Source: Candidatus Bathyarchaeota archaeon
Lineage (GTDB): Archaea; Thermoproteota; Bathyarchaeia; Bathyarchaeales; Bathycorpusculaceae
NCBI GenBank assembly: GCA_026014735.1
Contig: JAOZHT010000003.1
Coordinates: 1-64,000, forward strand
DNA length: 64,000 bases
Direction: 5' to 3'
How positions within the stretch are numbered: the stretch's first letter is position 1; each line of letters starts with the position of its first letter. Positions 3,921 to 17,113 of this stretch are shown one piece after another. Under the pieces are notes generated by a model that saw nothing but the letters and a program-made list of their open reading frames with translations, was not told the DNA's origin and made no database searches. Position numbers and translations under genes: made by a program.

Positions 3921-4004
3921 ATGAACCATAAGCAGCCGCCGAGTACCTCCACTCGCCTAGTTCACTTGCGATCTCATATTCAGGCTAGGCGGATTGTTTT
4001 TTAA
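3921..4004 (+). CDS. Possible 27-codon leader ORF ahead of CYTH
   Basis: An ATG at 3921, about 28 bases after the predicted transcription start, opens a 27-residue frame (MNHKQPPSTSTRLV... ending in RRIVF) that stops 22 bases before the CYTH start. The peptide is basic and not recognised. The frame contains both arms of the 3954-3991 stem. It could be a translated leader or chance. Confidence 0.25.
   Translation: MNHKQPPSTSTRLVHLRSHIQARRIVF
3954..3991 (+). promoter_or_regulatory. Stem-loop in the CYTH leader
   Basis: CGCCTAG (3954-3960) pairs perfectly with CTAGGCG (3985-3991) across a 24-base loop, and TTGTTTTTT follows at once. It looks like a terminator or attenuator placed 35 bases before the CYTH start codon. 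Confidence 0.4.
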
Positions 4005-4026
4005 GAGATCCGATTCTTCTTATTTT

Positions 4027-4572
4027 ATGAAAGAAGTCGAAGTGAAGATTTTAGAGGTCAACCGGCAAAAGCTCACAGGGGCCCTTGAAGGCATGGGGGC
4101 CAAAAAGGTTTTTGACGGTGAAGTCACCACGGTATTTCTAGATTTCCCCGATGGCCAAATAGGCAAACGCGGAGATGTTTTGCGGATAAGAAGAATGCAG
4201 CAGAAAACAGAGGTAACCTACAAGAAAATCAAGGCTGCCCAAGCCGTTAAGGAAGCCGACGAAACAAACCTGGAGGTGTCAGACTACGACTCCGCACTAG
4301 CTATTCTTCAATGCCTCGGGTTAACCGTAACCGGGCAGATGCAGAAGCACCGGGTTAGCTATCGGCTTGATGGAGTTCACTTTGACATCGACCGTTACAG
4401 CAGCGACTACGGTTTTATCCCAGAATTCCTGGAGATAGAAGGCACCGTGGAGAACATACACAGATACGCTGGCCTTTTAGGTTACCAGCCTAAAGATTGC
4501 TTGCCTTGGTCAACCAGCCAGCTAGTAGACTACTATTTCAACAAAAAGCACAAACAAGAAAAAAGCGGTTAA
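4027..4572 (+). CDS. CYTH-domain triphosphatase / CyaB-like protein
   Basis: The 181-residue product belongs to the CYTH family, a metal-dependent tunnel-fold group including thiamine triphosphatase, class IV adenylate cyclase and inorganic tri/polyphosphatases. The signature ExExK is MKEVEVKI at the N-terminus, and later strands carry RIRRM, YKKIK and the acidic FIPEFLEIEG motif that binds metal. I chose the ATG at 4027 over the TTG at 3994 because the family starts directly at ExExK. Proximity to ppk1 and a CHAD protein favours a polyphosphate or tripolyphosphate substrate (inference). The stop overlaps the convergent gene's stop in a shared TTAA. Confidence 0.85.
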   Translation: MKEVEVKILEVNRQKLTGALEGMGAKKVFDGEVTTVFLDFPDGQIGKRGDVLRIRRMQQKTEVTYKKIKAAQAVKEADETNLEVSDYDSALAILQCLGLTVTGQMQKHRVSYRLDGVHFDIDRYSSDYGFIPEFLEIEGTVENIHRYAGLLGYQPKDCLPWSTSQLVDYYFNKKHKQEKSG

Positions 4573-5351: not shown

Positions 5352-7490
5352 TTGGTAACTGCCTCCTTCTGTGATTCAGAAAAAAACAGCGCCCTCGCTA
5401 TAGACAAGACGCTGGATAACCCCAGCTACTACATCAACCGCGAAGTCAGCTGGATTCGCTTCAACGCCCGCATCCTTGAAGAGGCACGCGACGACGAATG
5501 GAATCCGCTGCTGGAACGAATCAAGTTTTTAGCCATCTGCGGCAGCAACCTCGACGAATTCTTCATGACCCGGGCAGCACGACTGCTTAAAAAAATCAAC
5601 CGGGGCTCTGAAGAACGCACCATGGACGGCATGACCCCCACTGAGCAAATCAACGCTACCCGCAGAGAAATATTGCCCCTAATCGAGAAACACGCAGACT
5701 GCTGGAACAACGAATTATTGCCTGCGTTGGCAAAGGAAGACATCTTGGTCTGCAAATTCAGCGAGTTAGCGGAAACCAAAAAAGAGTCGCTGCGAAGCCT
5801 GTTTGCCTCATCGATTTTGCCTGCAGTGAAGGTTTATAGGCAAAACTGGGAGGCAAACGACATCGAGAATCTCCATGTGTCCCTCTGTGTGGGCGGCTTT
5901 GAAGGCGGCGGCTTCTGCATAGTTGATTTACCCACGGAGCAGTATGGTCGACTCATTGAGGTTCCCCAGTCCAGTTTTAGGCAGAAACTAAACATTCAAC
6001 ATGAGTTTGTTTTCTTAGAGGATCTGGTAGCAGCCAATCTGGACCTGGTTTTTGCTAATCAAATGCATCTTGCCGCGTACCCGTTTAGGCTGACCCGGAA
6101 CGGTGAAATCGAAATACTCATGAATGAATCCTCAGATTTCCTCTCCTCAATCAAGAAGGGACTCACTAAACGCAAAACAGGGTTCCCCAGCCGCCTTGAA
6201 TACAGCAAAGACATGCCCCAGACCCTAAGAGATGCCTTAGCGACACGGTTGGGGTTGCCGGATTACTTAATCTACGAGTTTAATGGCCCCCTTGGACTCG
6301 TGGACCTGTGGCAGCTGCATAAAATATCTCGGCCTGACCTTAAAGACAAAACTTTCCTGCCCTCCATCACGCCGCTGCTTACGCCCGAAAAGAGCCTTTT
6401 TCAAACAATCACTAAACATGACATCGTGCTGTATCATCCCTATGACGGCTTTGAGGTAATTGTGGATTTACTCAAGGAAGCCGCGCGGGACCACGGGGTG
6501 GAACGCATCTGCATAACTATGTACCGTATGGATGCTAAATCACCGGTGGTAGATGCCCTCATCGAGGCCGCCCGAAACGGCAAACAAGTCACAGCCATCG
6601 TCGAGTTAAAAGCCAAGTTCGACGAGGAAAACAACATTCTGCTTGTAACTCGCCTTAAAGAGGCGGGGGTTGAAGCAGTCTATAATTTCCCCAACCTTAA
6701 AGTCCACGCTAAACTCTGCTTGATTGTACGCAGAGAAAAGCAGGGGCTGGCCCGCTACTCGCATGTTGGCTCAGGCAACTACAACGCGGTGACCGCAAGA
6801 ATCTACGGCGACATCGGCTACCTGACCGCTAGACATGACGTCGGCGTCGAGCTCGAGGAGCTTTTCGGCATACTCATCAATGGCTTACAGGAAAAGGACT
6901 TTAAGCATTTGCTGGTGGCGCCTAAATCCCTTAAAAACGAGATTCTTAAGCGTATCGAACGGGAAATTGAGTTTCATAAGCAAACCGGCTGCGGGTATTT
7001 GGCGTTTAAACTCAATAACCTTGAAGAGAAAGACATAATCAAAGCCCTCTACTGTGCCTCGATGGCGGGAATTAAAATCGACCTTAACGTGCGGGCGCTC
7101 TGCTGCCTAAAACCGGGCATCCCCGGGGTAAGCGAGAACATCTCTGTGATTTCGATTGTGGGGCGTTTTTTGGAGCATGCCCGCATCTACTACTTCCAAC
7201 ATGGCCCCGACAGCGAAGTGCTAATCGGCAGCTCAGATTTGATGTTTAGGAACCTAAACGAGCGCGTGGAGGTGCTCTTTAGCGTTCCCGACCCCAAAAA
7301 CCGCCAAGCCATCCTTGAGCATATGCTCAAAATTCACCTGCATGATAACGTTAAAGCCCGCAGGCTCCTATGCGACGGCACCTACCAGCGGGTCACCGCA
7401 AAACCCGGTGAAGCCAACATCAACTCGCAGTTCTGGCTAATCCAAAACAGAGGCGTCTGGCATGAACACACCGAATACAACCCCGTGTAG
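5352..7490 (+). CDS. ppk1: Polyphosphate kinase 1
   Basis: PPK1 reversibly makes inorganic polyphosphate from ATP in the cytosol. The 712-residue product has the full family layout: N-terminal helical domain (YINREVSWIRFNARILEEA, then GSNLDEFF), a middle domain, and two phospholipase-D-like halves. The autophosphorylated His is His452 in KVHAKLCL and the second conserved His is His617 in YYFQHG. HVGSGNYN and the C-terminal FRNLNERVEV are also present. The start must be the TTG at 5352 because a stop lies two codons upstream and no ATG follows near the conserved N-terminus. The 3' end overlaps the next gene by 29 bases, indicating one transcript with the CHAD fusion and ppx. PPK1 is uncommon in archaea, so lateral origin is possible. 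Confidence 0.95.
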   Translation: MVTASFCDSEKNSALAIDKTLDNPSYYINREVSWIRFNARILEEARDDEWNPLLERIKFLAICGSNLDEFFMTRAARLLKKINRGSEERTMDGMTPTEQINATRREILPLIEKHADCWNNELLPALAKEDILVCKFSELAETKKESLRSLFASSILPAVKVYRQNWEANDIENLHVSLCVGGFEGGGFCIVDLPTEQYGRLIEVPQSSFRQKLNIQHEFVFLEDLVAANLDLVFANQMHLAAYPFRLTRNGEIEILMNESSDFLSSIKKGLTKRKTGFPSRLEYSKDMPQTLRDALATRLGLPDYLIYEFNGPLGLVDLWQLHKISRPDLKDKTFLPSITPLLTPEKSLFQTITKHDIVLYHPYDGFEVIVDLLKEAARDHGVERICITMYRMDAKSPVVDALIEAARNGKQVTAIVELKAKFDEENNILLVTRLKEAGVEAVYNFPNLKVHAKLCLIVRREKQGLARYSHVGSGNYNAVTARIYGDIGYLTARHDVGVELEELFGILINGLQEKDFKHLLVAPKSLKNEILKRIEREIEFHKQTGCGYLAFKLNNLEEKDIIKALYCASMAGIKIDLNVRALCCLKPGIPGVSENISVISIVGRFLEHARIYYFQHGPDSEVLIGSSDLMFRNLNERVEVLFSVPDPKNRQAILEHMLKIHLHDNVKARRLLCDGTYQRVTAKPGEANINSQFWLIQNRGVWHEHTEYNPV

Positions 7491-9774
7491 CGCAGACGAT
7501 CTGTACTGTAGGTTCGGCGCAGAAACCATCCTAAAACTCACTGACGGCTTCATGGAGCTAATCGAGGGAGTCATCGCCGACGAGGACATCGAATACGTCC
7601 ATAAAACCCGCGTTGCCTCACGGCGGCTTAGAGCGGCGCTCCCTGTTTTCCAGGATTGCTTTGCCAAGAAACAGTTCAAGGCATGGAAATGCGACGTTAA
7701 GCAGGTTACAAAGTTGCTTTCCAGCGCCCGAGACCTTGATGTGCAAATTGCCTTCCTGGAGCAGTATATAGAAAAGCTGTCTTCGCCGGCGGAGCAAGCC
7801 GCGATGAAGCAGCTGCTTAAAAGCCACAGGAGCCGCCGACGAAGCGTTCAGGGCAACGTGGAAGAGGGCCTAAAGGAGCTTAAAGAGGCGGGGACATTGG
7901 AGGAAATCCGGGGCGTCTGCGGGCAGGCACTGTCAGATCAGCCCAGTCTAAGCTTGGGTTCGGCTTCTGTTGTGGAGAAAGCGCATTGGCACATATCCGT
8001 TAGACTCGACGAATTCCTCTCTATGCAGAAATACGTCCACGTCGAGGGCGCAGATCAGCAGCATCATCAAATGCGGATTAGAGCCAAAAGGCTCCGCTAC
8101 ACCATGGAGTTCTTTGCCTCCCTCTACCCCGATAAGCTAGAAAAAGAAATTGACATGATAAAGAATTTTCAGGATGAACTCGGAGAACTCCACGACAGCA
8201 TCGTTTGGCTCCAATACGTGCAAGCGCTCAAGAAAAACAGCCCTAAATCTGCCAAAGCCCCATTCAAGCTGGCACTTAACAACTTCTCAGACTACCTGCA
8301 AAACAGAAGAAGCGGGTATTACGGCAACTTCGTGAAGCTCTGGAACCAGTGCTGCCGCACGGGCTTCTTTGCTCAGCTTAGAAAAACCGTCAGCCTCATT
8401 GTTTTGTCAGGCGCCGAGGCTATGGCGGGGGAAAAATTGAAGCACCAGAGGGTTAGAATCGCTGTTCTCTCGGATATTCATGCGAATCTGCATGCGCTTG
8501 AATCTGTGCTGGAGGATGCCCACAAGCGGGGCGTAACGGTTTTTGTTAACGTAGGGGACTCCATCGGCTATGGCGCCTGCCCAAATGAGGTGGTGGAGTT
8601 GCTTTGCCGAAAAGGTGTCCTCTCTATTCTGGGCAATTATGACTTGGAGGTGCTGGAGGATAGAAGTGATGCTAAAGGCGAAAAGCGGCTGGCATTCAAA
8701 TATGCCCAAAAGGCTCTCTCCGGGGGCGCCAGAAGCTATCTGGAGATGCTGCCGCATGAGCTGAGGTTGCAGGCGGCGGATAAGAAGCTGCTGGTTACGC
8801 ATGGAAGCCCCCGATCCATCGACGAACACATCTACCCTGACATCCCTGAGGAAGGACTAAAAGAGTTAGCTGACCTCGCCGGCGCAGACGTCGTGTTGGT
8901 TGGACATAGTCACAGGCAGTTTCAGCGGTCCGCTGGCAACGTGGTTTTTCTGAATCCGGGGAGCGTGGGAAGACCCGATGATGGAAACCCACAGGCCGCC
9001 TATGCATTACTGGATTTTAACCCTTTCAAAGCAGAGTTGATTCGGCTCAGTTACCCCGTCAAAGCGGCTGCTATGGCTCTGCGACTGGAAGGGTTGCCGG
9101 AGACCTATGCGCAGATGCTGCTGCGTGGAGTATCTCTTGATGAGGTGATGAAGCGGGACAGGGGCAGAGAGAAAGCCTTTGCTGAAAACTGCAGAGAAAC
9201 GGTGGCTGCCTGCGAGGAGTATTCGAAGATGCGTTGGCCTGATGTGGAGCATTATCTGCAGGTGACTAATCTTGCGTTGGCGCTGTTCGATGGGTTGTCG
9301 ACTCTGCATCGGCTGGGCAGCCGTGAGCGCTGCTGGCTGGAATGCGCCTCAATCCTCCATGACATCGGCTTGTCAGTGGAAGGCGGCAAACATAACAAGA
9401 ATACCGCTGAAATCATCTTAAACGACACCTCGCTGCCTATCACATCTAAGGACAGACGCATAATCGCAGCCTTAGCCAAATACCACCGTGGAGGCTTACC
9501 CAAGCGGGGCCAGTACCTGCTTTGCGGCCAGGGCAGCCGAACCATCCAAAAAATATGTGTTCTTGCAAGTATTTTGCGGGTCGCCGACAGCTTAGATTAC
9601 TCCCATGAATCCGCCGTTAAGCTACTGGGCATCAGGGTTGCTGCGAAAAGGGTGACGGTGGAATGTTTTTCCAAGTCAGAACTGGCCTTGGAGCAGCAGG
9701 CTTTTAATAAGAAGAAAGATTTGTTTGAAAAAGTGTTTAACAGGAAAATGGTGCTGGAATGGAAACAACCGTGA
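7462..9774 (+). CDS. CHAD - metallophosphoesterase - HD three-domain protein
   Basis: A 770-residue cytosolic fusion. Residues about 10-310 are a CHAD domain, known to bind polyphosphate: His47 and a basic helix (HKTRVASRRLR), repeated later as MRIRAKRLRYTMEFF. Residues about 330-560 are a calcineurin-like phosphoesterase: SDIHANLHAL (337-346), VGDS, GNYD, THGSP, VGHSH and NPGSVGRP. Residues about 590-770 are an HD-type helical domain: LHDIG, KYHRGG and RVADSLDYSH, resembling the C-terminal domain of the next gene product. The start overlaps ppk1 by 29 bases and the end overlaps ppx by 16. The substrate is unknown; polyphosphate ends or a nucleotide signal are the natural guesses from context. 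I do not recall this domain order as a described protein. Confidence 0.9.
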   Translation: MNTPNTTPCSADDLYCRFGAETILKLTDGFMELIEGVIADEDIEYVHKTRVASRRLRAALPVFQDCFAKKQFKAWKCDVKQVTKLLSSARDLDVQIAFLEQYIEKLSSPAEQAAMKQLLKSHRSRRRSVQGNVEEGLKELKEAGTLEEIRGVCGQALSDQPSLSLGSASVVEKAHWHISVRLDEFLSMQKYVHVEGADQQHHQMRIRAKRLRYTMEFFASLYPDKLEKEIDMIKNFQDELGELHDSIVWLQYVQALKKNSPKSAKAPFKLALNNFSDYLQNRRSGYYGNFVKLWNQCCRTGFFAQLRKTVSLIVLSGAEAMAGEKLKHQRVRIAVLSDIHANLHALESVLEDAHKRGVTVFVNVGDSIGYGACPNEVVELLCRKGVLSILGNYDLEVLEDRSDAKGEKRLAFKYAQKALSGGARSYLEMLPHELRLQAADKKLLVTHGSPRSIDEHIYPDIPEEGLKELADLAGADVVLVGHSHRQFQRSAGNVVFLNPGSVGRPDDGNPQAAYALLDFNPFKAELIRLSYPVKAAAMALRLEGLPETYAQMLLRGVSLDEVMKRDRGREKAFAENCRETVAACEEYSKMRWPDVEHYLQVTNLALALFDGLSTLHRLGSRERCWLECASILHDIGLSVEGGKHNKNTAEIILNDTSLPITSKDRRIIAALAKYHRGGLPKRGQYLLCGQGSRTIQKICVLASILRVADSLDYSHESAVKLLGIRVAAKRVTVECFSKSELALEQQAFNKKKDLFEKVFNRKMVLEWKQP

Positions 9775-11339
9775 AAGCCGCGGGGTACGTGGTTGGTTTT
9801 GTAGACATTGGCACAAATGCGTTGCGCCTGTTGGTGGTGAGGATTAACCCCAACTTTTCATACACAACCATCAGCCAGGAAAAAGAGGTGGTGCGGCTGG
9901 GCGAGCAGGAATTCAAAGACGGCATCCTAAAACCCGAGGCGATGGAACGCGCCATCTTCGTCTGCGGCAAATTCGCGGACCTCGCCCGAACTTATGGTGC
10001 ATCGGAGATCATCGCTGTGGGGACCTCGGCGATTAGGGAAGCCAAAAACCAAGAGGAATTTCTCCAGAGGCTCTACCGGGAAACCGGAATCAACGTTAAC
10101 GTCATTTCAGGCGAGGATGAAGCTAAGCTTATTTGCCTTGGGGTTTCAAGCGGCATAGACATCGGGGACGAAAAAGCGCTGTTTATCGATTTAGGCGGCG
10201 GCAGCACCGAGATAGCTATCGGCGACCAGTATGAATGCTCCTACGTTCAAAGCCTCCAGCTGGGGGCAATCAGGCTTACCTCGCAGTTCATAGGGGAAGG
10301 CTGGCGTGGACCCATAAAAGAGGAAGTTTACAAGAAAATCAAAGCCTACGCCGCCGATGAAATAAGGGCGGTTAAACCCCGAGTTTTAGAGTACGGCGTA
10401 AGACTGGCATATGGCTCCTCTGGAACCATGATTAACCTGGCGGAAATCTCTAACAAACTGTTCAAGAAAAGCAACAGCAACGGTGAACTGGTGCTGACCA
10501 AGAAAAACCTCAAAAAAGTCGCCACTGCACTCTGCTGGCTGCCGCTGGAGGACAGACGAAGCGTCCCAGCGATTAACCCTGATCGAGCAGACATCATTAT
10601 TGCAGGCGCAGCTGTAATCGAAGCCATCATGGAGGAATTCGGCTTGGAGGAAATCCACATTAGCCACCGTGAACTCCGCGACGGCTTACTGGTAGAGTAC
10701 CTCTCTAACTTCGAGGGCTTCCGCGAACTCCAAAGGACACCGATGCGGGATCGAAGCGTGCTGAGTTTGGGCAGGTCCTGTAATTTTGATGAGAAGCACT
10801 CGGAGACCGTGGCGGCGTTGGCTCTGCAGCTTTTTGATAGTGCAAAACAGATAGGGCTCCATGATCTGGGGCAGCGTGAACGCGAAATGCTGGGTTACGC
10901 TGCAACGTTGCATGACGTGGGGGATTTCCTTTCCTTTAACAATCATCATCAGCATTCGCACTATATCATCAGTAACGCTGGGTTGCCTGGGTTTGATGCC
11001 CATGAAATCCAGATTATCGCAAACATCGCTCGCTTCCACCGCAAGAAGCTGCCCTCAAAGAAGGCGCTTAAAGCCGAGGGACTCGATGAGGCAGGCAGGT
11101 TGGCGGTGGTGGTGGGTTCGACTTTTCTGCGTTTCGCTGAGAAGCTGGATCGCAGCCACTGCAATCTGGTGAAGAAGGCGGAGTTTGCCCGGGAAGGCAA
11201 GGGCTTGGTGCTGCTTCGGTTTTATTCGGATACGGATTGCAGCTTGGAGGAGTGGAGCGTGAATCAGAATCGGCAGGCGTTTTTTGAAGCCTTCGATGCG
11301 GAACTGCAGGCCCAATGCATAGTAACCCCCAACCTGTAG
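9759..11339 (+). CDS. ppx: Ppx/GppA exopolyphosphatase with C-terminal HD domain
   Basis: This enzyme removes terminal phosphates from polyphosphate, or hydrolyses pppGpp in the GppA branch. The ASKHA-fold half (residues 1-310) shows VDIGTNALRLLV (phosphate 1), GTSAIREA, ISGEDEAKL, IDLGGGSTEI (phosphate 2) and YGSSGTMINLAEI. The C-terminal half is an HD-type domain (LHDVGDF, then FHRKKLP and RFAEKLDRSH), as in long bacterial Ppx/GppA proteins. Length 526 fits that long form. The ATG lies inside the 3' end of the CHAD fusion gene, so the two are translationally coupled. No GTP alarmone synthetase is visible in the window, which favours polyphosphate as substrate. Confidence 0.9.
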   Translation: METTVKAAGYVVGFVDIGTNALRLLVVRINPNFSYTTISQEKEVVRLGEQEFKDGILKPEAMERAIFVCGKFADLARTYGASEIIAVGTSAIREAKNQEEFLQRLYRETGINVNVISGEDEAKLICLGVSSGIDIGDEKALFIDLGGGSTEIAIGDQYECSYVQSLQLGAIRLTSQFIGEGWRGPIKEEVYKKIKAYAADEIRAVKPRVLEYGVRLAYGSSGTMINLAEISNKLFKKSNSNGELVLTKKNLKKVATALCWLPLEDRRSVPAINPDRADIIIAGAAVIEAIMEEFGLEEIHISHRELRDGLLVEYLSNFEGFRELQRTPMRDRSVLSLGRSCNFDEKHSETVAALALQLFDSAKQIGLHDLGQREREMLGYAATLHDVGDFLSFNNHHQHSHYIISNAGLPGFDAHEIQIIANIARFHRKKLPSKKALKAEGLDEAGRLAVVVGSTFLRFAEKLDRSHCNLVKKAEFAREGKGLVLLRFYSDTDCSLEEWSVNQNRQAFFEAFDAELQAQCIVTPNL

Positions 11340-11516: not shown

Positions 11517-12173
11517 TTAGCCGAGGCTTAGTTTTTCGCCGGAAACGATGTAGATGACGGATTCGCAGATGTAGACGGCGTGGTCGGCGATGCGTTCAAG
11601 GTAACGCGTGACAAGTATGCTGGATATAACGAATTTGCTGTCGGCTTGCTCTTGGCTGGTTAATCGGTTGAGGAATTCAAGGTACATCTTGTCCACTTCG
11701 CGTTCGGGGGGCGTGATGGTTCGGGCGAGGGCGACGTCGTGTTTCCGCAGGGAATCAACGCTTGTCTTCACCATGAAAAGCACTTTATCGCTCATGCTGG
11801 CTAAGTAATCTTTGGTTGCTTCATCGGTGGGTTTTAAGCCGCCAAGCTGATCGTTTAAGCTGGATATGTCCAGGGCGTAGCGGGCGTACCTGGCGAAGTC
11901 GTTGGCTATTTTCATGTAGGATTTTATGGCGCGCAGGTCCGATGCGACGGGTTGGAAACGGGCGATTAACTCGAAGGTTTTGTCTTCTGCTTTACCGGCC
12001 ATGGCAACGAGCATATCCGACATTTCTTTAACTTGGCTATGGACGCTTCTGCCGTCTAAGTAGCCATAGATTGAAAGGGAAAGGGTATCGTAGGTTAACT
12101 CTCCCATGCGGCTAAGCAAAGCTGACTGTTCTTCTAATCCTCGGTCGATTATTCTGCTCATATTCAAGGTCAT
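11517..12173 (-). CDS. phoU: PhoU phosphate-uptake regulator
   Basis: PhoU proteins are cytosolic all-helical dampers of the Pst transporter. The 218-residue product has two PhoU repeats, each with the E/DxxxD-type metal-binding pattern (MADMLVAMAGKAEDKTFEL-like first repeat, then VDSLRKHDVALA). It is the last gene of the pstSCAB-phoU operon, three bases after pstB. A second, DNA-binding PhoU protein is encoded divergently at 16052. The 11340-11516 spacer to ppx is convergent and holds nothing I recognise. Confidence 0.92.
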   Translation of the reverse strand: MTLNMSRIIDRGLEEQSALLSRMGELTYDTLSLSIYGYLDGRSVHSQVKEMSDMLVAMAGKAEDKTFELIARFQPVASDLRAIKSYMKIANDFARYARYALDISSLNDQLGGLKPTDEATKDYLASMSDKVLFMVKTSVDSLRKHDVALARTITPPEREVDKMYLEFLNRLTSQEQADSKFVISSILVTRYLERIADHAVYICESVIYIVSGEKLSLG

Positions 12174-12176
12174 GTT

Positions 12177-12944
12177 TTATCCGAACTCCCCTGTTATATA
12201 CTTCTCTGTAAGCTTGTTTTTAGGTGACTCAAAAATCTCTGCGGTGGGGCCAAACTCGATCAGCGACCCCAGATACATAAACGCCGTGTAATCGGAGACA
12301 CGCGAGGCCTGCTGCATGTTATGGGTAACAATGGCGACGGTGTAGTTCTTTTTAAGCTCAACGACCAGCCGCTCAATCTTAGCCGACGCAATGGGATCCA
12401 AAGCGGAGGTTGGCTCATCCATCAAGATAACCTCAGGCTGCAGGGCAATCGCGCGGGCGATGCAGAGCCGCTGCTGCTGCCCCCCGGAGATGCTGGTTCC
12501 AGGCTTCTTTAAGTCGTCTTTAACTTCTTCCCAGAGTGTAGCCTGCTCTAGGCTCTTCTTGACTACCTCGTCGAGGTTTCTGCCCTTCCGCGAACCAGTT
12601 AATTTGAGGCCGGCTGCGACGTTATCGTAGATTGACATCGTTGGGAAGGGGTTGGGTTTCTGGAAGACCATGCCTACGCGGCGACGAATCATCACGGGGT
12701 CAACGTTTGCGCCGTAGATGTCTTCGCCGTCGAGTGTTATCTGCCCGGTAAGCTTGGCTGTGGGCACTAACTCATGCATTCGGTTGAGGGTGCGGATGAA
12801 AGTGGATTTTCCGCATCCGGATGGCCCAATGATTGCTGTGACAGCGTTTGATTTTATGGGCAGGTTGATGTCTTTAAGTGCCTGTTTTGGACCAAACCAT
12901 GCGTTGAGGTTTATGCTTTGCATTTTTATGTTTTCATTTTCCAT
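12177..12944 (-). CDS. pstB: Phosphate ABC transporter ATP-binding protein PstB
   Basis: The ATPase of the high-affinity phosphate importer. Walker A is GPSGCGKST (residues 40-48), the ABC signature is SGGQQQRL, Walker B is [12 protein letters not shown], and the switch His is in IVTHNMQQA. Length 255 is standard for PstB. It sits between pstA (7 bases upstream) and phoU in a tight operon, and works as a dimer beneath PstA/PstC at the membrane. Confidence 0.97.
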
Positions 12945-12951
12945 TCATTTT

Positions 12952-13827
12952 TCACCTTGAAGCTCCGCCGCGGTATCTGCCTCTGCTGAGTAGGCGGACG
13001 CCTATGTTGAGCGCTAAAACTATTAAGATCAATATCAAAGATGCACCCCACGCCTGCGCCTGCGACGCCGCCGAGGGCAACCGTGAATCGAGGAAAATTC
13101 TAAGGGGCAGCGCATCCATCGGCGCGCTTAAGCTCTGGAAGTAGAAGCTGCTGCCAAGAATCGTCAGGAGAATCGGGGCGGTTTCGCCGGCTATGCGGGC
13201 GATGGCAAGCAGGGTGCCGGTGATTAAGCCCCCTTTTGCGGAGGGTAAAACCACGCTTAGGATGGTTCGCCACCGATGTATACCCAGCGCCATAGAGGCT
13301 TCGCGTACGCTGTTAGGGACCAATTTGAGGGATTCCTCGGTTGTTCGGGCCACGATGGGGATAAGCATGAAGGATAATGCGACGGCTCCGGCAAGCGGGG
13401 AGAAGCCTGTGTGTATGAGAACGCCGACGACGATTAAGCTGTATGCAGTGATGCCTACGATTATGGAGGGAAACTCTGTTAATATGTCGTTGGCGGACCG
13501 CATCCAAGTGGCGAATTTGTTGTTTCCGTACTCGGCAAGGTACACGCCTGAAAGAACGCCGACGGGGATACCGATGAGGCTGGTTAAGCCGATTAGAATC
13601 AGTGTTCCCTGAATGGCGGGGCCGATGCCGCCCTGCAAGCCGTTTCCAGTTAGGAATTGCCAGTTTATGACGGGGGCGCCGCGCACTATGACTTCAAAGA
13701 GTATGCTGAGCAGGGGCACTATGGCGATTAAGACGCAGATGAGGCAGAGGACGTAGAAGAACTTGTTTTTGAATTTGCGGAGGCGGTAGTTGTTGAAGCT
13801 TAGTTTCTGCAGCAAACCTTCCAGCAT
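12952..13827 (-). CDS. pstA: Phosphate ABC transporter permease PstA
   Basis: A 291-residue membrane subunit with about six helices. The coupling-loop EAA motif is seen as REASMALGIHRWRTILSVVLPSA, contacting PstB. It starts on the last base of the pstC stop region (13827), so the two permease subunits are translationally coupled. Family assignment rests on the EAA loop, the helix pattern and the operon position. Confidence 0.95.
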   Translation of the reverse strand: MLEGLLQKLSFNNYRLRKFKNKFFYVLCLICVLIAIVPLLSILFEVIVRGAPVINWQFLTGNGLQGGIGPAIQGTLILIGLTSLIGIPVGVLSGVYLAEYGNNKFATWMRSANDILTEFPSIIVGITAYSLIVVGVLIHTGFSPLAGAVALSFMLIPIVARTTEESLKLVPNSVREASMALGIHRWRTILSVVLPSAKGGLITGTLLAIARIAGETAPILLTILGSSFYFQSLSAPMDALPLRIFLDSRLPSAASQAQAWGASLILILIVLALNIGVRLLSRGRYRGGASR

Positions 13828-14759
13828 TACTCGATTGCGCCTCCCTTAATTTTCAGCACCCGAGTCACCATAACATGCGCTAAGACGTTGATGACAAGGC
13901 TGATTAGAAGCAAAACCAGCCCCGCGCCGATGTAGGCGGAGCTTTGAAGTGGAGTTTGTGAATCGAAAAAGCCGTTAGCGATCAAAGATGGCAACGTTTG
14001 GCCTGCCTGAAAAAGCGAGGTGGGCATAGCGCTGGGGCCCGTGGCGTTGCCTATAACCATGGTTACCGCCATGGTTTCGCCTACAGCTCGGCCTAAACCC
14101 AAGATTACGGCTCCAAAGATGCCTGAGCGTCCATAGCTGATGACCCAGTGGCGGATAACTTCCCATTTTGTGGCGCCTATACTGTAGGCGGCTTCCCGTA
14201 TCGAGCCGGGGACGGCGCTGATGACTTCTCTGGAGACCGAGGCAACTGTGGGGATAATCATTATGGCAAGGATTAACCCTGCGGTGAAGAAATCCAGTCC
14301 TATGGGGGTTCCGCTGAAGAGCGGTATCCAGCCCAGGTAGGTGTTGAGGGGTATCTCGATGTAGTCTAACACCCAGAAACGTAGAACAAACAGGCCCCAA
14401 AGACCATAGATTACGCTGGGGACAGCGGCCAGCATCTCAACGAGGTATGAGAAGGGAACCCGCACGAATTTTGGAGCCATCTCCACGATGAAGATGGCGA
14501 TGCCTAAGCTAAGCGGCACACCTATCAGCAGTGCCAGACCCGAAGTGATGAGGGTGCCCAGGATATAGGGGAGCACGCCAAAGGAGGATATGCCGGGGTT
14601 CCAGTTTACCCCCGTTAAGAAGCCGAAGCCCTCGCTTTCGAATACCAGCGTGGAGCCCGTGACTAGTACGTAAGCGTTAAGGATTAGGATGATTGCTGCG
14701 GATGCGGCGATGATTGCTGTTACGATTTTGAAAGAATTATCGCCCGTTAGCTTTCTCAT
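13827..14759 (-). CDS. pstC: Phosphate ABC transporter permease PstC
   Basis: A 310-residue permease with about six membrane helices and the PstC-type coupling loop REAAYSIGATKWEVIRHWVI, followed by the characteristic LGLGRAVGETMAVTMVIGN helix. It heterodimerises with PstA. The 71-base gap to pstS contains, on the coding strand, a T8 tract that may partly terminate transcription and keep PstS more abundant than the permease (inference). Confidence 0.95.
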   Translation of the reverse strand: MRKLTGDNSFKIVTAIIAASAAIILILNAYVLVTGSTLVFESEGFGFLTGVNWNPGISSFGVLPYILGTLITSGLALLIGVPLSLGIAIFIVEMAPKFVRVPFSYLVEMLAAVPSVIYGLWGLFVLRFWVLDYIEIPLNTYLGWIPLFSGTPIGLDFFTAGLILAIMIIPTVASVSREVISAVPGSIREAAYSIGATKWEVIRHWVISYGRSGIFGAVILGLGRAVGETMAVTMVIGNATGPSAMPTSLFQAGQTLPSLIANGFFDSQTPLQSSAYIGAGLVLLLISLVINVLAHVMVTRVLKIKGGAIE

Positions 14760-14830
14760 GCTAATCTGCCCGAATTAATATTTTTTAGGAAAAAAAGGTT
14801 TTGGGATGCCATAGCTAGCGCCCTCACTGT

Positions 14831-15931
14831 TTAGTGTGTGGGGATAGCTTGGCCTTTGAAAGTTATAGTGCCTAAGGTAGCTTCGTTGATTTGCACCAGG
14901 TTAGCTGGGAGCGTTGCATATTGCAGTGAAGGAGCAACTTGCTGACCGTCATGCACGACATACCAGATGTACTGGACAATTGCCGTTGCCTTCTCAAGGG
15001 TCATATCGGGGATATCACCGAGGTCTTTGTAGACAAGCATGTAAGTTGGGGTAACGATTGGATAGGCTTGTTCGCCGCTGGTGTTTAGGATGGCTACTTT
15101 TGCCCAGCTGTCACTTCCCGAGGGAAGCGGAGTTGGCAGAGATTGTGCTGCTGCAGTGGTGGATTCAAGCGATGGCAGCACATAGTTGCCTGCTGGGTTT
15201 TTGATTGCTGCAACTGTAACGTTGTTTTCGAGTGCATAGGCTAATTCGATGTATCCGATTGCATAGTTGGTTGAGGTGACTGTTGCTGCGACGGCGGAGT
15301 TGCCGCTTTGGCCGGTTCCGACTGGCCACTGGACGGTTGTGTTTGCTCCGATGTGTGTTGCCCAGGTTTCACTGACTAAAGAGAGGTACTTTGTGAACCA
15401 GTTAGTTGTTCCAGAGCCGTCTGATCGGTGAACGACGACTATGTTTTGGTGAGGTAGGGTTACGCCGGGGTTGATGGCGGCGATTGCGGGGTCATCCCAG
15501 GAGGTTATGGTGCCCATAAAAATGTCAGCGACTATTGGACCCGTGAGTTTGAGGCCAGAGTCTATACCGGGGAGGTTGTAGGCTACGGTGATGGCGCCGA
15601 TTGTTTCGGGGATGTGGACTACGCCGGGTGCTGCGGCTCTCTGTGTGTCGGATAAGGGTGCATCTGAGCAGGCGAAGTCAACGACTTTGTTTGTTAAGTC
15701 GCTGATGCCTTTGCCGCTGCCTCCTCCTTGATAGTTAATTTGCACGTTTGAGTGTATCGATGAGTATTCGGTGATTGTGGAGGTTAGGAAGGGCTGTGGG
15801 AAGGTGGCTCCGGATGCGTTGATTGAGATGGGGGTTGATGCTGGTGAGGAAAGATAGGTGTAGGCGACTACTGCGCCGGCAATTATTGCGATTGCTACTA
15901 TGGCAATTATGATGGTATATTTAGTGTTCAT
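14831..15931 (-). CDS. pstS: Phosphate-binding protein PstS, membrane-anchored
   Basis: The extracytoplasmic phosphate receptor. From the ATG at 15931 it is 366 residues with a short N-terminal anchor helix (YTIIIAIVAIAIIAGAVVAY) and no lipobox Cys, then NASGATFPQPFLT, the phosphate-loop GGGSGKGISDL and HRSDGSGTTNWFTKYL, all diagnostic of PstS. I chose the internal ATG rather than upstream in-frame starts because those would run through the divergent promoter. First gene of pstSCAB-phoU. Confidence 0.95.
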   Translation of the reverse strand: MNTKYTIIIAIVAIAIIAGAVVAYTYLSSPASTPISINASGATFPQPFLTSTITEYSSIHSNVQINYQGGGSGKGISDLTNKVVDFACSDAPLSDTQRAAAPGVVHIPETIGAITVAYNLPGIDSGLKLTGPIVADIFMGTITSWDDPAIAAINPGVTLPHQNIVVVHRSDGSGTTNWFTKYLSLVSETWATHIGANTTVQWPVGTGQSGNSAVAATVTSTNYAIGYIELAYALENNVTVAAIKNPAGNYVLPSLESTTAAAQSLPTPLPSGSDSWAKVAILNTSGEQAYPIVTPTYMLVYKDLGDIPDMTLEKATAIVQYIWYVVHDGQQVAPSLQYATLPANLVQINEATLGTITFKGQAIPTH

Positions 15932-16051
15932 ATTATTCTTCCTTGGTTTTTGTGTAGGTATCCCCAAAAATGTTTTATATAGCAAACCCACGTAAAAGCT
16001 ATAGTATATATAGATACATCTAATATAACAAAAATACATAAAGGTTTAGAC
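15932..16051. promoter_or_regulatory. Divergent pstS / phoU-like promoter with inverted repeat
   Basis: The 120-base gap holds TTTATATAGC (15974-15983) and AGCTATAGTATATATAG (15998-16014-ish), which face each other as an imperfect inverted repeat and together supply TATA boxes for both directions. The neighbouring AbrB-PhoU protein is the obvious candidate to bind here and couple phosphate status to both transcripts (inference). Confidence 0.55.
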
Positions 16052-17113
16052 TTGGAGTCAACGTTGACTAAAGAAACTGAAAAAATAAACGAAGAACAAC
16101 GAAAACTGCAGGTTACAGGCGGCTCAACTTTCATCTTATCCCTCCCCAAAGACTGGGCAACCAAAAACGATCTCAAACGCGGCAGCAGCATGATAGTCCG
16201 CGAAGAAGAAGACGGCTCACTCTCCATCGCGCCATCGAGTTTTCCCAAGAAGGAAAAACAGGATGAAGCACTAATTAGAGCTAACCCCAACGACAACCCC
16301 GACGCCATCATGCGGACCGCCATCTCCGCTTACCTAAACGGCTACAACCTCCTGCGTATTCGGGCACAGGGCCAAAAGGTTCTCTCCTCAAAGCTGCGGA
16401 ATTACCTCAAACACTTCGCCCGCCACTACCTAGTTGGAACCGAAATCGTAATCGACACCTCCACAGAATTAACGTTGCAGGTGCTGCTTAACTATCCTGA
16501 ACTCACCGTGCAAAACGCCCTCAGCCGCATGTCCATCATCGGCTCCTCCATGCAAAAAGAAGCCCTTTTAGCCCTCGGAAAACTCGACTACACCAGCGCC
16601 AAAGCAGTCATAGAAACCGACCGCGAAGTCAACCGCTTCGGCCTCTACATTGTACGGCTCCTCAAACTGGCGGTTTCTAATCAGCGCGTCGTTAAAGAAA
16701 TCGGGTTAGGCTACCAGAAAGAGTGCCTTGGCTACAGGTTGATCGCTAAATCCGTGGAGCGCAGCGCCGACCACGCCACCAAAATCGCTGAGAACACCCT
16801 GCTTCTCAAGGAACCGGTGGAAGCGGAGTTGATGGGGAAGATCAGTGACCTCAGCAACCTGGCTAATTCAATGTTTGAAAACTCTATGGAAGCCCTCTTT
16901 AAGCATGATTTTAACCTCGCCGAATCGGTTATCGAAAAACTCAGCCAAGCCCACAAACTCGAGAAAGAGGCTGTGATGGGGTTACCTAGCGCTTCACATG
17001 AGGAAATCGTGAATCTGCGCTTGATTATCGAGAGTTTGCGTCGCATCGGTGAGTACGCCGCTGATATTTCTGAGGTTGTGCTGAACCTAAACGTTGAGTC
17101 CGTGCTCAGCTAA
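16052..17113 (+). CDS. AbrB-type DNA-binding domain fused to PhoU domain
   Basis: An archaeal phosphate-responsive regulator of 353 residues. Residues 15-60 form a swapped-hairpin SpoVT/AbrB domain (RKLQVTGGSTFILSLPKDWA, then GSSMIVREEEDGSLSI). Residues about 90-340 are helical with a PhoU-like repeat, including ALGKLDYTSAKAVIE and KHDFNLAESVIEK. The start is TTG at 16052, with another TTG four codons later as an alternative. It is transcribed away from pstS from a shared 120-base region, so control of the Pst operon is likely. Direct DNA binding is inferred from the domain, not shown. Confidence 0.9.
   Translation: MESTLTKETEKINEEQRKLQVTGGSTFILSLPKDWATKNDLKRGSSMIVREEEDGSLSIAPSSFPKKEKQDEALIRANPNDNPDAIMRTAISAYLNGYNLLRIRAQGQKVLSSKLRNYLKHFARHYLVGTEIVIDTSTELTLQVLLNYPELTVQNALSRMSIIGSSMQKEALLALGKLDYTSAKAVIETDREVNRFGLYIVRLLKLAVSNQRVVKEIGLGYQKECLGYRLIAKSVERSADHATKIAENTLLLKEPVEAELMGKISDLSNLANSMFENSMEALFKHDFNLAESVIEKLSQAHKLEKEAVMGLPSASHEEIVNLRLIIESLRRIGEYAADISEVVLNLNVESVLS

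Follow-up and report, generated by a model that had tools for sequence, protein, structure and literature searches.

What could an archaeal protein do that joins a CHAD domain to two hydrolase-like domains and is encoded between a polyphosphate (polyP) kinase and an exopolyphosphatase? The question is raised by an open reading frame at 7462-9774 (+) of the window, by which we mean the whole stretch of 64,000 nucleotides of Bathyarchaeota DNA that was analysed. A sequence-only reading had described three domains, normally found apart, in one 770-residue chain and had suggested a processing enzyme or a sensor that trims polyP or a linked nucleotide. Microbial polyP metabolism is considered to be limited to kinases and exopolyphosphatases, with endopolyphosphatases given for microbial eukaryotes (PMC13318637, 2026).

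Domain architecture and gene neighbourhood

A Pfam search located CHAD, calcineurin-like metallophosphoesterase (MPE) and HD domains in the 770-residue product, which starts with ATG, all with scores above the curated cut-offs. The CHAD domain comprises residues 34-252 (7561..8217, +; PF05235, E 4e-46, 158 bits compared with a cut-off of 25.6) and belongs to a wider helical region (residues about 13-326); Foldseek matched it to 6qva and 6qv7, so that profile and fold agree on its assignment. The MPE domain covers residues 332-557 (8455..9132, +): the Metallophos_2 match (PF12850, E 1.4e-23) spans residues 332-519, and alignment to solved structures extends the domain to about residue 557. Its Foldseek matches are 3rqz, SapH (3qfm) and Pyrococcus proteins, and it aligns over its length to the first two. 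The C-terminal region (residues 585-770; 9214..9771, +) matches Ppx-GppA_III (PF21447, residues 594-735, E 6.7e-13) and HD (PF01966, residues 596-713, E 1.9e-8), and PPX/GppA structures were also returned by Foldseek, as expected for the HD. This identifies the domain as an HD of the PPX/GppA domain III type and not a generic one, which refines the earlier assignment; no different domain was found in the middle or C-terminal part. The full-length AlphaFold2 model (24 sequences) has a mean pLDDT of 90 and a pTM of 0.79. Pfam profiles for the catalytic domains I-II of Ppx-GppA (PF02541) and for CYTH find no match in the fusion, which places it outside the PPX/GppA and the TTM-CHAD polyphosphatase families, respectively.

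The fusion gene overlaps both of its neighbours, in line with the placement between PPK and PPX noted from the sequence alone, and the three genes together occupy 5352..11339. The gene for the PPK1 polyphosphate kinase (5352..7490, +; NCBIfam PRK05443.2-2, 760 bits; TIGR03705, 706 bits) overlaps the fusion with its 3′ end by 29 nt, and the gene for a PPX/GppA exopolyphosphatase with its own domain III (9759..11339, +; PF02541, E 2.2e-64; PF21447, E 1.2e-29) overlaps the fusion end by 16 nt. Convergent with this set are phosphate-uptake genes on the minus strand (11517..16039), which encode PhoU (11517-12173; Pfam PhoU), PstB (12177-12944; ABC_tran), PstA (12952-13827; BPD_transp_1), PstC (13827-14759; BPD_transp_1) and a PstS-like protein (14831-16039; PBP_like_2). 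Beside the pstS-like gene, a MazE/AbrB-type domain is joined to PhoU domains (16052-17113, +). A CYTH-domain protein is encoded by a separate gene upstream of PPK1 (3994..4572, +; PF01928, E 7.9e-17).

Active-site residues

Mutation of six residues (His/Arg/Arg, Arg and Arg/Tyr) weakens polyP binding in CtCHAD from C. tepidum (PMC6537752). By alignment, their equivalents in the fusion are H47, R50, R54, R90, R212 and Y213, which are invariant in all sequences covering them, and polyP binding by this CHAD domain is predicted. The dinuclear MPE ligand set (D-x-H, GD, GN-x-D, H and GH-x-H) is complete in the fusion (D338, H340, D366, N392, D394, H447, H482 and H484) and is kept in 72-76 of 76 sequences. 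At the GNHD histidine position the fusion has a tyrosine, and 75 of the 76 have a residue other than histidine; this histidine is likewise missing in SapH, and its absence thus does not imply inactivity.

The corresponding HD residues are H597, H633, D634, H644, H675 and D709, among which H597, H633, D634 and D709 form the H...HD...D ligand motif of HD-domain phosphohydrolases (PMC8177086). The position of D709 separates the fusion from its neighbour: it is Asp in 52/54 module HDs compared with 1/41 PPX domain III sequences, where Glu or Asn is found in 40/41 from these loci. In a phylogenetic tree, module HDs and PPX domain III lie on two sides (SH-aLRT 98), so that the fusion's HD did not arise by recent duplication of domain III of the adjoining PPX but is an old paralogue of it. 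One stray row, L087_HD_1, stems from a contig end, falls among the PPX domain III rows and is taken for a truncated PPX; in a formal test with this row still labelled HD, one clade was not rejected (p-AU 0.255).

The near invariance of the MPE and HD ligand sets across phyla suggests that most copies are under selection for metal-dependent catalysis. Together with the invariant CHAD contacts, it bears out the earlier description, at the level of sequence, of a polyP-binding-type domain tethered to two hydrolase-like domains. A few copies have decayed. A second, downstream fusion copy (L038:10584-13013, equal to L023) has lost several MPE ligands and carries HE for HD in an open frame, and L052 has the substitution D338N in the MPE; a non-catalytic role would thus exist or be tolerated in some copies. 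In L106 the CHAD match is strong and the MPE region can hardly be recognised.

A recurring module with changing gene arrangement

A scan of genome contigs with the single protein as query returned no matches. An alignment-based scan, with DNA patterns derived from CHAD, returned 79 loci from the best 80 places, which for both reasons do not amount to an unbiased census. Their ranking followed similarity to the fusion protein and took no account of neighbouring genes; profiles built from same-genus sequences served to annotate them. Among them, the full CHAD-MPE-HD fusion is found in Bathyarchaeota, Methanolliviera and Thermoplasmatota. CHAD accompanies an MPE-HD protein in Methanoperedens, Synergistota, Omnitrophota, Elusimicrobiota, Planctomycetota and Myxococcota; a CHAD-MPE protein accompanies HD in Methanomicrobiales; three adjacent genes are present in Anaerolineaceae; and some Methanomicrobiales and Chloroflexota have CHAD and MPE with no recognised HD. 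Synergistales L049 would be an independent full fusion in bacteria, but this is doubtful: there is an ambiguous residue in its frame, and a close relative, L057, is split. The domains are thus separate genes in some lineages, as the sequence-only reading held, but to call them normally found apart misses that, in about ten phyla among these loci, they occur as adjacent genes or partial fusions, which makes the fusion one form of a recurring module.

On the MPE tree, the arrangement must have changed at least 9 times, with 3 changes in the CHAD-MPE join and 7 in the MPE-HD join. MPE and HD show the highest correlation of divergence among module pairs (r 0.84). PPK1, PPX or Pst/PhoU genes are present at 69 of the 73 loci that have CHAD and MPE, and pst/phoU genes lie near the module also in other Bathyarchaeota, Methanolliviera, Methanomicrobiales and Anaerolineaceae. 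CHAD, MPE and HD look like one unnamed polyP-processing unit across about ten phyla.

In Leptolinea, the gene order is PstC, PstA, PstB, PhoU, two dTMP-kinase-like genes, CHAD, MPE, HD and SAM hydrolase. Two Leptolinea genomes and one Levilinea genome each contain two genes for PPK2 and lack a Ppx-GppA match; PPK1 is absent from the former two and present in the latter, whose locus has CHAD and MPE only. With PPK2 and no Ppx-GppA match, the three-gene form becomes a candidate polyP hydrolase in Leptolinea.

Several further associations were observed. Tandem, divergent dTMP-kinase-like genes lie just upstream of CHAD in Anaerolineaceae and at an Armatimonadota locus (L105:6500-7914; L059, L061, L066, L092, L095, L096, L097, L100, L103, L109 and L110). 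A SAM hydrolase (SAM_HAT) is fused to the MPE in Brevefilum-type Anaerolineaceae (L061:9111-10673, L065:8952-10538) and is the next gene after the module in Leptolinea (L105:10509-11333). Chloroflexota CHAD proteins with an N-terminal helix-turn-helix (L098:8848-10815, L099:8846-10183, L094:1013-2890) adjoin PPK1 and a stand-alone MPE, and one also has CYTH. In Methanocalculus and at a Methanocorpusculaceae locus (L079, L081, L083), CHAD-MPE follows a pair of neighbouring PPK1 genes.

Conservation in sister genomes

The host genome is 99% complete. Homologues with 42-59% identity are found in 14 sister species of the same genus, nearly all between PPK1 and PPX, so that the fusion is not a misassembly, as the sequence-only reading had allowed it might be: the same single open frame recurs in these separately assembled sister species, in Methanolliviera and in Thermoplasmatota. 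That unrelated genes were joined by chance or in assembly, an idea to which the separate genes of some lineages would lend colour, is highly improbable given this recurrence, the domain order conserved when split and the correlated divergence of the domains.

Among 61 genomes (its own and relatives), 15 have both module and PPK1, 2 have PPK1 only and 44 have neither; every module-bearing genome thus carries PPK1, which was not found outside the genus in this set. The Fisher test of this co-occurrence (p 2e-12) makes the evidence look stronger than it is, since the genomes are kin. In two genomes (G025, G024) the fusion gene is broken over frames or contigs. Fragments of the fusion C-terminus lie upstream of PPX in two same-genus genomes (L037 and L020, G005:C77); L037 has an intact copy downstream of PPX, and only a fragment (G003:C126:2200-2352) remains between PPK1 and PPX.

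Discussion

Taken together, the evidence supports a two-site hydrolase that is associated with polyP and probably catalytic. The reading we prefer, in which we place about even confidence, is a polyP-tethered two-site phosphohydrolase that works between PPK1 and PPX. CHAD would grip polyP and offer the chain to two sites of hydrolysis. One would be a calcineurin-like MPE with a dinuclear centre, the other an HD akin to PPX domain III in which, in contrast to the PPX copy, the HD ligand set is complete. The protein would most likely cut or shorten polyP and so supply PPX with chain ends, or else control chain length and mobilisation. Domain identity, ligand conservation, the operon and phosphate-gene context, the existence of fused and split forms, PPK1 in all 15 module-bearing genomes of the sampled relatives, the Leptolinea genomes without a Ppx-GppA match and the correlated MPE and HD divergence count for a polyP hydrolase; the decayed MPE copies, the lineages without HD, the two PPK1-bearing sister genomes without the module and the fact that SapH, the nearest characterised MPE relative, is not deposited as a polyphosphatase count against it. 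We infer catalysis, polyP as substrate, endo- or exo-cleavage and cooperation with PPX. PolyP is favoured as substrate from the gene partners and the CHAD grip, with a nucleotide as the main alternative; trimming of polyP or a linked nucleotide, as first suggested, is plausible, and our results do not decide between the two.

A nucleotide substrate would make the protein a polyP-tethered nucleotide hydrolase, whose MPE and/or HD degrades nucleotides that arise or are consumed around polyP, for example Ap4A or nucleoside tetraphosphates, and whose CHAD only positions it at the granule. SapH, whose deposited annotation is Ap4A hydrolase and phosphodiesterase, ranks with the best matches of the MPE in both structure and sequence, and it too has no GNHD histidine; YqeK, a dinuclear HD enzyme with two extra histidines between HD and D, hydrolyzes Ap4A (PMC8177086); and some Anaerolineaceae have a SAM hydrolase next to the MPE or fused with it. 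The fusion's HD is, however, of the PPX domain III kind with a ligand spacing that appears to differ from that of YqeK, and the genes that recur beside the module are those of polyP metabolism and phosphate uptake. As the genome has no RelA/SpoT match, (p)ppGpp is not likely to be what the HD hydrolyzes in this organism. We regard a nucleotide hydrolase as possible but not probable.

Alternatively, the protein may be mainly a scaffold or sensor, in which CHAD binds polyP and the ligand- or metal-bound MPE and HD act as regulators of PPK1, PPX or Pst-PhoU, with catalysis unneeded. The decayed copies L038 and L052, the strong CHAD with a faded MPE in L106 and the nearby PhoU genes would fit such a role, but it is rather unlikely in view of MPE and HD ligand sets that are nearly invariant across phyla.

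The preferred phosphohydrolase can tentatively be specified further. The module could be a prokaryotic endopolyphosphatase. CHAD would thread polyP to an MPE cutting inside the chain, the HD would be a second active site, related to PPX domain III, and PPK1, module and PPX would make, cut and trim polyP as a set that anaerobic archaea and bacteria have conserved; we hold this joint proposal with low confidence. The eukaryotic endopolyphosphatases Ppn1 and Ppn2 are phosphoesterases acting on polyP and offer a functional parallel only.

Among known systems, the TTM (CYTH)-CHAD short-chain polyphosphatases such as E. coli ygiF (PMC6537752) likewise fuse CHAD to a metal-dependent phosphohydrolase of polyP metabolism, but there the hydrolase is the N-terminal CYTH/TTM domain, whereas the fusion carries CHAD at the N-terminus, with MPE and HD as its hydrolases. 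Stand-alone CHAD proteins (phosins) from C. tepidum and S. solfataricus (PMC6537752) share fold, polyP-binding residues and polyP gene context with the fusion but have no catalytic domains attached. SapH/Spr1479 and 3rqz, the best MPE matches by sequence and fold, share 25-31% identity with this domain and have no CHAD or HD fused in the solved chains. PPX/GppA domain III has the HD fold and most ligands in common with the module HD; the module lacks PPX domains I-II, has Asp where PPX domain III has Glu or Asn, and occupies a separate branch. In the open-access literature covered, one paper, on TTM enzymes, was found for CHAD, polyphosphate and metallophosphoesterase together; that no other was found is weak evidence of novelty.

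The Asp-to-Glu difference between the module HD and PPX domain III bears on what the latter does or did. The split forms in cultured Leptolinea and the partly fused forms in Methanospirillum make the module testable. If PPK1 and PPX have a conserved third partner whose two hydrolase sites appear intact and which is predicted to grip polyP, then polyP turnover in methanogens, Bathyarchaeota and anaerobic bacteria would gain a further step.
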